From positions 1 to 49,749 of the forward strand of contig NZ_LMVP01000024.1 in NCBI RefSeq assembly GCF_002287235.1: a stretch of 49,749 bases of DNA, read 5' to 3'. Below are positions 6,135 through 32,882 of this stretch, piece after piece; the first letter of the stretch is position 1; the number at the start of each line of letters is the position of its first letter. The notes under the pieces were generated by a model. The model made no database searches. It was not told the DNA's origin and worked only from the letters and a program-made list of their open reading frames with translations. The position numbers and the translations under genes were made by a program. This stretch comes from Methanosarcina spelaei. GTDB lineage: Archaea > Halobacteriota > Methanosarcinia > Methanosarcinales > Methanosarcinaceae.

Positions 6135-8411
6135 TCATCGATGCCGGACTACACAGTTTGATAGCCCGATTATCTCGACAATATCACTGTTATCAGGAGA
6201 ATGAATTATCATCTGTCCTTTCTTGAGATAGGGAATTCTCCGTTCATATTCCTTCGGAACTTTCAAAGATGTAATAGCTGCGTCGTTGTTGAGATTAAGG
6301 ATCAGTTTCGTATTTATTTGCTTGAAAACCGTATCATCGATATCCTGAGGGTCCTGGGTGATTAAGAAAAGCCCCAGTCCTTCTTTTCGGCCCTGGCGAG
6401 CTGCATCTGCAAAACGTGAGATAATAAGGCGAGAGTGTTCTCCATTTGCATTTGAGAGATATCGATGAGCTTCATCCAGAGCGAGAATTATTGGAGTTTC
6501 TTTAATAGCTTCCTTTCCCGTTGTATTTAGTTTGTTGTCCACGATCAGGCTCATGATTGTGAGCACTATGAGATCGCGGATTCTCGGGGCACTTATATAT
6601 TCAGTCGGGAAGACTGAAATCTGCCCTGGCTTGAAGATCTATTCCACAAGGTCAATAATTGAAGTCGCATCCCGATCAAAGACCTTCGAAAAGAAGGGGT
6701 TTCTTACTCTTCTTACAATACCGTCATATGAAGACTCATGCAGCTTTCCGCTGTCAACATAGTAGGAACGTGTACCTTCATTATCAATATGGTTGACGAA
6801 ATTCTGGTAAGTATGGGGTACGCTTGATTTGAAGAAATCTCCAAGAAGCACTTCAAGCCCGATATACTGGAGTTCTGACATTCCGGCTGCTGCAATAAGC
6901 CAGGAATTATGTTCTACAAGCGAAAAAGGAATTGTAAATTCAATCTGCTCGGCTCTGGATTTATCCCCGGGGTATCTTTGACCGTCAACTTTCGCCACGA
7001 AAGCCCTTGTAGAGAGAACTCGACCATAAGTTACATTTTCGGATTCAAACTGGAATTTATCGTCCTCAGTCAAGGTCTCGTTGTCCTCAAAAAGCTGGGA
7101 ATATTCATCCTGAGGATCCATAATTACCAGGCAAGGGTTTTTCCGTGCCTTGTCAGGAGAACTTCGCAGCCTGTACCTGTTGTCTTCTCTCAGGAACTGA
7201 CGAAGAATATTTTTTGAGAGGAATGTTTTTCCTGTACCTGTGCTTCCGCAAATAAGCATATGTCTGAAAATAAGGGGGTCGCCCATAGAATAGTCGTTTC
7301 TCAGGTAATATGCAACCGTTTCTGGTTCGGAATTAGTTTTTAAAAGCTCACCCCCTACACTCAAGTGGCCGAGAAAGATTCCTTCTTCAGGAATATTAAG
7401 CCCTGTCTGGACTTCAAGCCTGTCAGTAACAGGCAGAATAGGAGTGTTAGGGTGAGGAATTCGGTCTGCCATCCGCCGCGTGAGTTTGCCGTCGGCCTTT
7501 CGGTACAGAATACAGAGTGGATCAAGACAGGCAAGGAACTTGTAATCGTCTTCATTTACGGGGTTTCCACCAGCACTGAGCATGCGCCTTGAGTGAATTT
7601 CAGTTGCGTCGTCTACCATAAACTCCTGCCTGTACTGAAGTTTTCCTACCCTGGCAAAGAGTTTTTCTCTGTTTTCGTAAGGCACAACAACGTATGTACC
7701 TAGCCTTATCTCACTTCGACGAGCTGATGTAATATAACCGGTAATTACAGCTCCTGAAGGAGTTAATTCAAGAGGTTCTATGCCTGTAGTGACAATCCCG
7801 AAAGCTTCTGAAACCGGAGCAGCCTTCAATACATTATCATCACATCCGGCAAAGCCTTCAAAGGGAAAAGCTTTATTTCCGGAACTCCCAAGAACTTCGG
7901 ATTCAAAAGAGAGGTCTGAAAGGGGCAGAGAAGCAGTCTTAGACACATGAGCGGTCGTAGATAGAGATGAAGATTTTAAAATTGCTTCGGCATGACCTGA
8001 AAGAATGTCAAATTCGAGATCAGATTCAATATCAGATTTGATATCAGATTCAATGCTAGATTTAGTTGGGGTTAAATCGGGTACATTCTCAAGACAATCT
8101 TTCCTCATATCCTCGAACAATGGGGGTTGCAGTGTTTCCTCAGTATCAGATGTGAGTATAGAGGTGACTAGATTAGATGTGACCAGATCGGGAGCATCTT
8201 CGATGGAATTTGCTGTCTTGCTCATATTTCTGTTTTCAGGACTTATCTCATCAGGACTGTCATTTCCAAGCTCAGCAAGACTTTCATTTTTTAGCTCAGC
8301 AGGGCTTTCCTTTGAACCTGCATTCTCTTCAGTTCCTGAATCCACAGAAGCCTGCTCCTTTTTCGGTTTGCAAGAGTTAAAAGTAAAAATGTCGACATTT
8401 TCATATTTCAT
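6135..8411 (-). CDS. herA: HerA-type DNA translocase/helicase (FtsK-HerA ATPase) with an in-frame UAG codon
   Basis: HerA is a hexameric DNA pump that works with the NurA nuclease in DNA end resection. The frame runs 758 codons from ATG 8411 to TGA 6135 and contains one TAG (6639-6641, codon 591). Codons 1-210 are a Ser/Asp/Glu-rich, probably disordered extension unusual for HerA. A HAS-like beta-barrel follows (about 225-330), then Walker A GSTGTGKT at 389-396. Walker B (ILALDEAH, D646/E647) and the following QGRKEGLG and LITQDPQ segments lie after the TAG, so a product ending there could not hydrolyse ATP. In Methanosarcina UAG can be decoded as pyrrolysine. The TAG sits in a linker before the conserved-looking KPGQISVF strand and both sides stay in one frame. 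The start is ATG 8411, overlapping the nurA stop by 11 bp; an ATG at 8435 is also possible. Confidence 0.8.
6639..6641 (-). other. in-frame amber (UAG) codon within herA
   Basis: CTA on the plus strand is TAG on the coding strand, between residues IIDLVE and IFKPGQISVF. The frame before and after it is continuous: codon phase is identical and no other lesion occurs over 758 codons. It is a candidate pyrrolysine codon. The alternative is a nonsense mutation giving a 590-residue truncated protein. Confidence 0.7.
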
Positions 8412-9735
8412 TAATCTTATTCCACCTGGTGTCATTATAAGTAGTATCGGGACTCATATTTTCAAAGAATTTATCAATCTCTTCCCTCTCTACTTTCCTG
8501 ATTTTTGCCAGATGGTCTGCTTTTGTGAGGGTAAGAGGAAAACCATACAAAGAAAGGTCAAAGAGCACTTTTTTGGTAATTTGCATACGGAGAGAGTCGT
8601 CTTTAACAAGCCCATACGGGGCCTCAACCTTGAAAACCACGTCTTTGTAGGGTACATAAAGCATGAAAAAGCAAAGAGCATAATCTTCAGACGGGAAAGT
8701 ATGTCTGAGTTCCTTCTGAAGCGGATCTGCGGCTGCAAGAGGCGAAGTCCCGTTAAGCAATTTTTCATAAAACCTGTTGGGCTGCAAAAACCAGTTAGTG
8801 TAAGTAATATAATCATTTTTGGAGCCGTTGTGCTTGCCGTTCTTCCCATTATTTTTAGAATTTTTTCCATTGTGCCCTGAAGCATTGTCAACTTTTTCCA
8901 GGGAGAGCAGATTCCTGAAAAACTGTGAATCCAGCATCCAGGGCAGGTCGAAAGCTTCCCTTTTTTTCCGGACGCTGTCCATGATCTGCACGTCAGTAGG
9001 GTTTTTTACAAAACCAACCACTGGCTGCCGGTTTTTCAGGAAATGATCCATGATATCGATGTAGTTCTGGAGAATTTTTTGGGCGTCGTTGTTCTGCCGG
9101 ACCCTTACGTCTTCGTCATCCAGTACCATCCAGTACATTAACTGTTTTGGATAAACCGGCCCGTCCATTATGAAAAAACTCTCAGGTTCAAGCCTGTCTT
9201 TCATGAAAAGAATATGTTCGGATTCTGCCAGGTACATTGCAAAACTGTGGACCATGTCAGAAACTTTTCTTTTTAACTCATCGGGCGCGATTGTAACCAG
9301 CTTTGCCCTTCCAAATCCTTCATCGAAGGTTTCCCAGCCTTGAGTAGCCTGCATGGATATCCTATGGGAAGAAGAATAAGCAGCGCATACGATTGTTCTG
9401 AATCTCTGAATATCAAGGCTAGTAGGCGTTGCAGCCAGCCCGCAGTGGCAGAAATCTACAAAAAGCCCGCTGTCATAAGTCCTTGGGTTTGTACTTCCGC
9501 TGTCGCAGGCGTAAGTAAGCGGATACGGGTCATCTCCCTGTGCCATCAGTTGAGTCCTTACAATCCCACGAAAGAGCCTGTCTATAGCTTTAAGAATGAC
9601 CCTACCATCAAGCCTTAGCTCCTCAAGCAAAGAATAGATATCCGAAGCCGTTTTTACCTCCTCAGATTCAAACGAACGGTCAATCTTTTTTGCAAGCTCC
9701 GAGATCTTATGCATATGCACGGGCTCAAGGGTCAT
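8401..9735 (-). CDS. nurA: NurA-domain nuclease, partner of HerA
   Basis: A 444-residue protein with the NurA signature: an N-terminal helical region, then ACDSGS with Asp78 as a likely metal ligand and MDGP with Asp191 as the second acidic motif. NurA enzymes are Mn-dependent 5'-3' exonucleases and endonucleases that sit on the HerA hexamer and resect DNA ends. The gene overlaps herA by 11 bp in the same orientation, so the two are translationally coupled and likely form one complex. Residues about 284-308 are an Asn/Gly/Lys-rich low-complexity insert (NGKNSKNNGKNGKHNG) not expected in the fold, probably a slippage-derived surface loop. Mre11 and Rad50 are not in the window. The start is the first ATG; a second ATG at codon 8 is possible. 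Confidence 0.85.
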   Translation of the reverse strand: MTLEPVHMHKISELAKKIDRSFESEEVKTASDIYSLLEELRLDGRVILKAIDRLFRGIVRTQLMAQGDDPYPLTYACDSGSTNPRTYDSGLFVDFCHCGLAATPTSLDIQRFRTIVCAAYSSSHRISMQATQGWETFDEGFGRAKLVTIAPDELKRKVSDMVHSFAMYLAESEHILFMKDRLEPESFFIMDGPVYPKQLMYWMVLDDEDVRVRQNNDAQKILQNYIDIMDHFLKNRQPVVGFVKNPTDVQIMDSVRKKREAFDLPWMLDSQFFRNLLSLEKVDNASGHNGKNSKNNGKNGKHNGSKNDYITYTNWFLQPNRFYEKLLNGTSPLAAADPLQKELRHTFPSEDYALCFFMLYVPYKDVVFKVEAPYGLVKDDSLRMQITKKVLFDLSLYGFPLTLTKADHLAKIRKVEREEIDKFFENMSPDTTYNDTRWNKINEI

Positions 9736-31519: not shown

Positions 31520-32152
31520 TTATATCTTCTTCTTGTCGAAATATTCGAGCATTTCAATTACTTTCTCATAGTCCACTTTCGTATTATAACAACCATCGTT
31601 CAACAGAGGGACACCATAAGTCACAACTTTTTTCCCATTTAAAGCGCACATTCCTTTGTTTATTTCGTAATCACATGCTATTCCAAGTATACCATCTGCA
31701 GGTTTATGTTTAAGGATATTAGCAATAGCTGAAGAACCGGTAGTTATATATAAGTCGTATCCATATTTTTTGGCATCTTTTCTTAATTGAGATACAATGC
31801 ACTTCCCGCAGTCCCGGCATTGAATTCCTAAGACTGTTGACGACGCAGGGCAATCTAACGCACGCACACAATGCGGAACAATAATTATGCGATTTTTGGT
31901 TTTTGAGAAATCTGAGGCATTAGCTATGTTCTTCAAAGATACTATCCACTTATCCAGGATTCGTGGATCTGATAATTTACAGAAAAAGTATTTTAAGGGC
32001 AAATAAAAAAAGTCAAGTACATTTGAAAAGAAACCTGCAAGCCATACATTCCTTTTCAGGCTAATTCGACTCACTATGAGAGCAAACATCGAGATTAAAA
32101 TTGAAAAAGTTATGGTAAAAAGCAGAGCTTTTCCTATAAAACTATACATCAC
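31520..32152 (-). CDS. DUF116-family membrane protein (copy 2)
   Basis: 210 residues with an N-terminal membrane helix (FIGKALLFTITFSILISMFALI) and a C-terminal Cys-rich cytoplasmic domain: PHCVRALDCPAS, LGIQCRDCGKCIV, GILGIACDYE and GVPLLNDGCYNT. The spaced Cys residues of this family suggest a metal or Fe-S site; the function is unknown. It overlaps the related gene upstream by 11 bp and follows hdrD on the same strand, so it may be co-transcribed with the heterodisulfide reductase. Homologous with the protein at 32142 over the whole Cys-rich domain. Confidence 0.78.
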   Translation of the reverse strand: MMYSFIGKALLFTITFSILISMFALIVSRISLKRNVWLAGFFSNVLDFFYLPLKYFFCKLSDPRILDKWIVSLKNIANASDFSKTKNRIIIVPHCVRALDCPASSTVLGIQCRDCGKCIVSQLRKDAKKYGYDLYITTGSSAIANILKHKPADGILGIACDYEINKGMCALNGKKVVTYGVPLLNDGCYNTKVDYEKVIEMLEYFDKKKI

Positions 32153-32882
32153 ATATCTCCATTTTTCGGATAATTTCTTCTACATCAGCTTTGGTATTGA
32201 AACAACCATCCCGAAGGAGAAGAACGCCCTGAACAGGGATAAAAGATACTTCCTGCATATCTTCTGCAAGCTCATTGTAACAGGCAACACCCAGGCAAGA
32301 TTGAGGCCTGTATTCTTTGAAGATTTTTTTGACAAAGCTACTTCCAGGAATTATAAAAACCTTGAAATTGTACTTATCTGCAGCCTCATATATCTTTGAA
32401 ATATCACATTTCCCACAACGTTTGCATTCATAACCATGAATAGGGTCACACCTTGCCCTGCATTCCGGGTGTCTCATACACTGAGGAAGGAACACAACCC
32501 TGTTTTTTTTTGTGTGAACAAAACGATCCAACATTAAGGCATTTCTTAAATCTATAAGAATATCATCTACAAGATTTTCCCTGATTCTAAAAAATCTGCA
32601 TAATAATTTTGAAGGAGAATAGAAAAGATAAAGTGTAAACAGCACGAACCCCGGAAAGATTATCCTGCGTTTTTTAAAAGAATACGCCCCTAAGAGCAGA
32701 GCGATCCCTGTTCCTGCAAGAGCAAAAAGAACCAGATATGTGAATATTTTTCCTAGAAATTCGTAAGGAATATACATGTTCAAGGGGAAGTAACTATCGA
32801 TATTTAAGTTTTGCCATATAACAATAAAAAGAGAGAAAGAAAAAAAAAATAAGAAAGCTGGAAATCCAGCCTTCATTTTCAC
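32142..32882 (-). CDS. DUF116-family membrane protein (copy 1)
   Basis: 246 residues. Two to three N-terminal membrane segments (AFLFFFSFSLFIVIWQNL and FTYLVLFALAGTGIALLLGA) precede the DUF116 Cys domain: LPQCMRHPECRARCD, GYECKRCGKCDIS, CLGVACYNE and LLRDGCFNT. The Cys pattern is richer than in the copy that follows. The gene begins 3 bp after the hdrD stop, so translation is probably linked to hdrED. This suggests an accessory role (assembly or electron transfer) for heterodisulfide reductase, but no experiment that I know of shows this. Confidence 0.78.
   Translation of the reverse strand: MKMKAGFPAFLFFFSFSLFIVIWQNLNIDSYFPLNMYIPYEFLGKIFTYLVLFALAGTGIALLLGAYSFKKRRIIFPGFVLFTLYLFYSPSKLLCRFFRIRENLVDDILIDLRNALMLDRFVHTKKNRVVFLPQCMRHPECRARCDPIHGYECKRCGKCDISKIYEAADKYNFKVFIIPGSSFVKKIFKEYRPQSCLGVACYNELAEDMQEVSFIPVQGVLLLRDGCFNTKADVEEIIRKMEICDV

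Follow-up and report, generated by a model that had tools for sequence, protein, structure and literature searches.

A private in-frame amber codon in herA of Methanosarcina spelaei as a candidate for neutral pyrrolysine read-through

The gene for the HerA-type ATPase of Methanosarcina spelaei is interrupted by a single in-frame TAG, which sequence comparison indicates is likely to be read through as pyrrolysine and to be of neutral origin. This reading is favoured because the genome holds a complete pyl cassette, a TAG-bearing mttB and other private TAGs, and because no non-synonymous change has accumulated downstream of the codon. If the codon is read through, HerA would add a DNA-repair motor to the natural pyrrolysine proteins outside methylamine metabolism, and would make it possible to test directly to what extent amber codons can drift into conserved genes in the presence of a suppressor tRNA. 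A limited literature search found no earlier report of HerA with pyrrolysine.

A single amber codon interrupts herA

The window (the whole stretch of DNA analysed, 49,749 nucleotides) contains herA next to nurA on the minus strand (Table 1). The herA frame, from ATG 8435 or ATG 8411 to 6135, is interrupted solely by the TAG at 6639-6641, which is found in the context ...GTG GAA TAG ATC TTC AAG.... The codon divides the frame into 598 aa from ATG 8435 (590 codons from ATG 8411) and 167 aa. Because a stop lies between the two ATGs in six relatives, ATG 8411 is the likely start and ATG 8435 probably is not. Counted from ATG 8411, the TAG is codon 591 of 758, in agreement with a preliminary description of this DNA. 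That description had also placed both sides of the TAG in one frame and Walker B after it and had taken NurA to be intact, and all three points were confirmed, with a single HerA/DUF87 ATPase spanning the site.

When the TAG is read as K, the Pfam DUF87 and HerA_C domains match across the site, while the 598-aa product by itself retains only the first part of DUF87. A stop at the TAG would retain Walker A and lose Walker B; the RQGRK motif (680), like Walker B, is located past the TAG. The explanation that the frame is open by chance was rejected, since the part after the TAG is conserved in all relatives and since this is the sole clean mid-gene nonsense codon among 117 genes.

The combination of a DUF87 ATPase carrying both Walker motifs with a gene adjoining nurA is characteristic of the HerA-NurA system; the HerA scores fall under the NCBIfam equivalog cut-offs for the described HerA types. 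As in the HerA-NurA DNA-end resection system, nurA and herA are adjacent and overlapping here, and the protein aligns to Sulfolobus HerA (4d2i). Unlike the described systems, the M. spelaei herA is interrupted by UAG. A plasmid search with the herA-nurA DNA gave no match.

Table 1. Coordinates of herA, its neighbours and the other TAG-bearing frames. Plain positions refer to the window; the remainder are given by locus or contig.
Feature	Position	Strand	Description	Basis
herA	6135..8411	-	HerA/DUF87-family ATPase, 758 codons with in-frame TAG	ORF reading, domain matches
In-frame TAG	6639..6641	-	codon 591 from ATG 8411 (599 from ATG 8435)	
Adjoining codon	6642..6644	-	GAA (Glu); GAT (Asp) in the nearest relative, G004	
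Walker A	7224..7247	-	GSTGTGKT, upstream of TAG	sequence; residues 397-404 in P0001 numbering
Walker B	6465..6488	-	ILALDEAH, downstream of TAG	sequence; residues 650-657 in P0001 numbering
nurA	8401..9735	-	intact nuclease partner, overlaps herA start	
246-aa ORF	32142..32882	-	TAG as apparent ordinary stop; read-through adds only 26 residues	
TPR protein	L141:5285-6541	-	private TAG; AAG (K) in nearest relatives, preceding codon changed too	
FilR1-type regulator	L175:10523-11413	+	private TAG; TGG (W) in all relatives read	
ADP-ribosylglycohydrolase	L177:710-1672	+	private TAG at codon 82	
Transposase-like ORF	L134:13784-15076	+	in-frame TAG common to copies in several other Methanosarcina genomes	
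DNA ligase paralogue, G004	L065:13794-15539	-	TAG at codon 32, inside DNA_ligase_A_N domain	
DNA ligase paralogue, M. spelaei	G000:C109:497-2242		in-frame TAG	

The genome encodes UAG decoding and seldom uses TAG as a stop

A complete pylTSBCD cassette is present on contig C368 of M. spelaei. It encodes a tRNA-Pyl with the anticodon CUA, and its PylS, PylB, PylC and PylD all exceed curated cut-offs. The mttB gene carries its canonical in-frame TAG. In the same genome mtmB was not found, and mtbB was recovered as fragments only, at contig ends, as expected if the assembly is broken by repeated genes.

M. spelaei does use UAG as a stop, though rarely: 24 of the 522 coding-like ORF ends in 1.17 Mb are TAG (∼4.6%). 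The rarity had been anticipated from the window alone, but the accompanying claim that no gene there ends in TAG was wrong, as the 246-aa ORF does so.

RNA folding after the herA TAG is better than that of shuffled sequences (z -2.5). A dedicated RNA element was nevertheless rejected, because the main hairpin is also present in the AAG-bearing G004 and the fold differs among relatives. In M. acetivorans, neither a PYLIS nor another special element is required for UAG reading, and a foreign uidA with an amber codon yielded 20-30% full-length protein with pyrrolysine, most of the product being terminated (PMC2933860). By analogy, HerA would fit ordinary Pyl-tRNA suppression with partial termination and no dedicated signal.

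The amber codon is private and occupies a tolerant position

HerA is present in 31 of the 31 Methanosarcina genomes searched, and only the M. spelaei gene contains an internal TAG; other stops inside full-length HerA matches, where read, precede the true start. The alignment of Methanosarcina HerA at codon 591 that the preliminary description proposed, naming a sense codon in all close relatives as favouring a nonsense mutation, returned exactly that: a sense codon occupies the site in the other 30 genomes and in the more distant relatives read. It follows that the site has been neither conserved nor selected for pyrrolysine, but a sense codon in relatives does not alone show that herA is dead.

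Most of the loci read have K at the site, several Methanosarcina have R and Methanimicrococcus-type relatives have T, and the family tolerates K, R, T and D. Sulfolobus HerA aligns across the site with a lysine at the equivalent position. In G004, whose HerA shares 97% protein identity, the two codons read GAT AAG, compared with GAA TAG in M. spelaei. The private AAG to TAG change thus stands beside a D to E change, and the two adjacent base differences look like one TA to AT event.

An AlphaFold model of the HerA core, of which only the locally confident stretch was used because mean pLDDT is low (51), places the site at the C-end of a short helix, ahead of a conserved strand. Given this position and the tolerance for K, R, T and D, a lysine derivative appears plausible at the site.

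Substitutions downstream of the amber codon

Compared with G004, all 31 codon differences past the TAG are synonymous. When the changes are polarised with outgroups, 15 synonymous changes past the TAG, and 0 non-synonymous ones, fall on the M. spelaei branch itself, although a very recent stop would look alike. The mutational opportunity N/S of this region is 2.43. If selection had been absent there for a fraction f of the branch, one would expect ∼36f non-synonymous changes. As none is seen, the unselected fraction f is at most ∼0.08 of the branch. Three readings fit the absence of non-synonymous changes: the TAG arose very recently, it is an error in the sequence, or it is read through.

Other private amber codons in the genome

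In-frame TAGs were surveyed in a 1.17-Mb sample (23% of the M. spelaei genome) by a reference-free coding-potential scan. Strict thresholds missed HerA and MttB and were therefore loosened; many TAA and TGA hits of the loosened scan were judged by eye to be ordinary neighbouring genes in one frame. Within the sample, four conserved genes carry a private in-frame TAG; their products are HerA, a TPR protein, a FilR1-type regulator and an ADP-ribosylglycohydrolase. Pfam domains span the TAG sites of the latter two, and the best matches of the ADP-ribosylglycohydrolase are stop-free in every other genome where they were found. In the same sample no TGA interruption was seen, and those by TAA were confined to an IS remnant, a multi-copy PKD repeat protein and a degenerate peptidase-like cluster.

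TAG is expected to account for 0.32-0.39 of nonsense mutations. The share of TAG among private interruptions (4 of 6) gives p ∼0.07-0.18, depending on the mutation spectrum assumed, while the share in conserved genes (4 of 4) gives p ∼0.015, with "conserved" judged after the fact. The first of these shares is suggestive but not significant, and the numbers behind the bias toward TAG are small. The wider sample nonetheless suggests a countable process, in which private TAGs enter conserved genes without matching TAA or TGA.

Competing explanations

The codon could be a true recent nonsense mutation, ending the protein at codon 590 with Walker A but without Walker B, so that HerA would be dead and NurA left without its motor. 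The change is private, with a sense codon in all relatives, and could represent a very young null allele; UAG also serves as a stop in this organism, and the UAG reporter in M. acetivorans was mostly terminated (PMC2933860). Against this, the lack of relaxed constraint downstream (15 synonymous to 0 non-synonymous changes) would place the mutation in the very recent past, three further conserved genes share the TAG-only state, no conserved single-copy gene in the 1.17-Mb sample was seen to be broken by TGA or TAA, and NurA is intact. Loss of HerA by this route is therefore considered unlikely.

A sequencing or assembly error, with GAT AAG as the true sequence, would make the difference vanish altogether. 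The genome is a draft of 559 contigs and, compared with G004, two neighbouring bases have in effect changed places. Adjacent double differences of this kind are, however, common and moderately in excess when the two genomes are compared (387 runs of two, 264 expected, 51 of the runs being swaps), and errors arising at random would have no preference for TAG in other genes. Among the 117 genes (126 kb) shared with the G004 sample, no other clean mid-gene nonsense codon was found; frameshifts are few, mostly short, at gene ends or in doubtful ORFs, and the reverse comparison is similar. A poor assembly with many frameshifts is unsupported by this comparison. An error in the sequence is thus possible, without special support, and appears quite improbable. 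It is also conceivable that the TAG ends a first chain and that a second chain of HerA is started at a GTG or ATG close by, as a GTG-started ORF of 143 aa follows the TAG (6135-6566). The FKPGQISVF strand would be missing from the second chain, inspection by eye of the sequence after the TAG showed no obvious Shine-Dalgarno motif, and the residues from the TAG to the GTG differ from G004 only synonymously, which makes a split gene very improbable.

A proposed model of neutral read-through

The preliminary description had offered two outcomes, pyrrolysine in HerA or a nonsense mutation. Of these, pyrrolysine read-through is favoured by the pyl cassette, mttB, the other private TAGs, the tolerance of the site, a DNA ligase paralogue with its TAG at one and the same codon in several species and the 15 to 0 ratio of changes downstream, whereas the idea of a conserved or selected pyrrolysine site is contradicted by the sense codons of the relatives. 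Nothing supports a special function of pyrrolysine in HerA, where it is most likely neutral. In the proposed mechanism, a recent private mutation from GAT AAG to GAA TAG would have placed the amber codon in a still functional herA, and the ordinary Pyl-tRNA(Pyl) pool would partly decode it. Two products would result side by side, a truncated protein lacking Walker B and a full-length HerA with pyrrolysine instead of lysine at a tolerant position. By analogy with M. acetivorans, herA probably still gives a full-length product, at reduced efficiency; we infer that the codon is read through, and efficiently enough for the HerA made to serve NurA.

The closest parallel is the tRNA-His guanylyltransferase Thg1 of M. 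acetivorans, which also has a private in-frame amber codon that is sense in relatives and lies outside methylamine metabolism. Its pyrrolysine, gained through this codon, is not essential for activity (PMC2933860). The Thg1 codon has been attributed to neutral evolution in the presence of UAG suppression (PMC2933860, PMC3639795), a neutral origin having been argued for some UAG sites (PMC3639795), and the same reading is proposed for HerA. HerA shares the defining features of this case: a private in-frame TAG in an intact conserved gene, in a genome with tRNA-Pyl, PylS and PylBCD. The two differ in that pyrrolysine was physically observed in Thg1, while in HerA it is predicted from sequence.

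The methylamine methyltransferases MtmB, MtbB and MttB, of which MttB is found with its TAG in M. spelaei, likewise contain a sense UAG that the pyl system decodes. In these enzymes the TAG is catalytic and conserved, in contrast to that of HerA, which is private, not conserved among orthologues, located at a variable position and not followed by a dedicated RNA element. Methanosarcina transposases resemble HerA in having in-frame TAGs in genes unrelated to methylamines (PMC2933860), but these are common across species and copies, unlike that of HerA. The transposase-like ORF of Table 1 agrees with the published transposase cases.

A DNA ligase paralogue with a shared amber codon

A DNA ligase paralogue presents a more striking case than HerA. 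A near full-length ligase match with one or two internal TAGs is found in ten genomes including M. spelaei, and a pattern search located the TAG at this ligase sequence in twelve genomes, ten of them within the ligase match. The site is stop-free in several other genomes, including G001, and in most genomes a second, uninterrupted ligase (∼37% identity) is reported as well. Around the TAG, most base differences are synonymous, which is the pattern that translation on both sides would produce. These sequence patterns make the paralogue a candidate for a conserved, long-kept pyrrolysine site outside methylamine metabolism.

More speculatively, this Methanosarcina clade may tolerate UAG widely as a sense codon. 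Pyrrolysine would then be present in several proteins of DNA repair and housekeeping (HerA and the ligase paralogue among them), their full-length amounts would follow pyrrolysine supply, and DNA repair would be tied to growth on methylamines. We hold this broader proposal to be doubtful.

As a separate observation, a protein-isoaspartate methyltransferase-like gene of G004 (L088, around 4780, minus strand) also contains an in-frame TAG (DGSMGYS[TAG]YAPYDRI).
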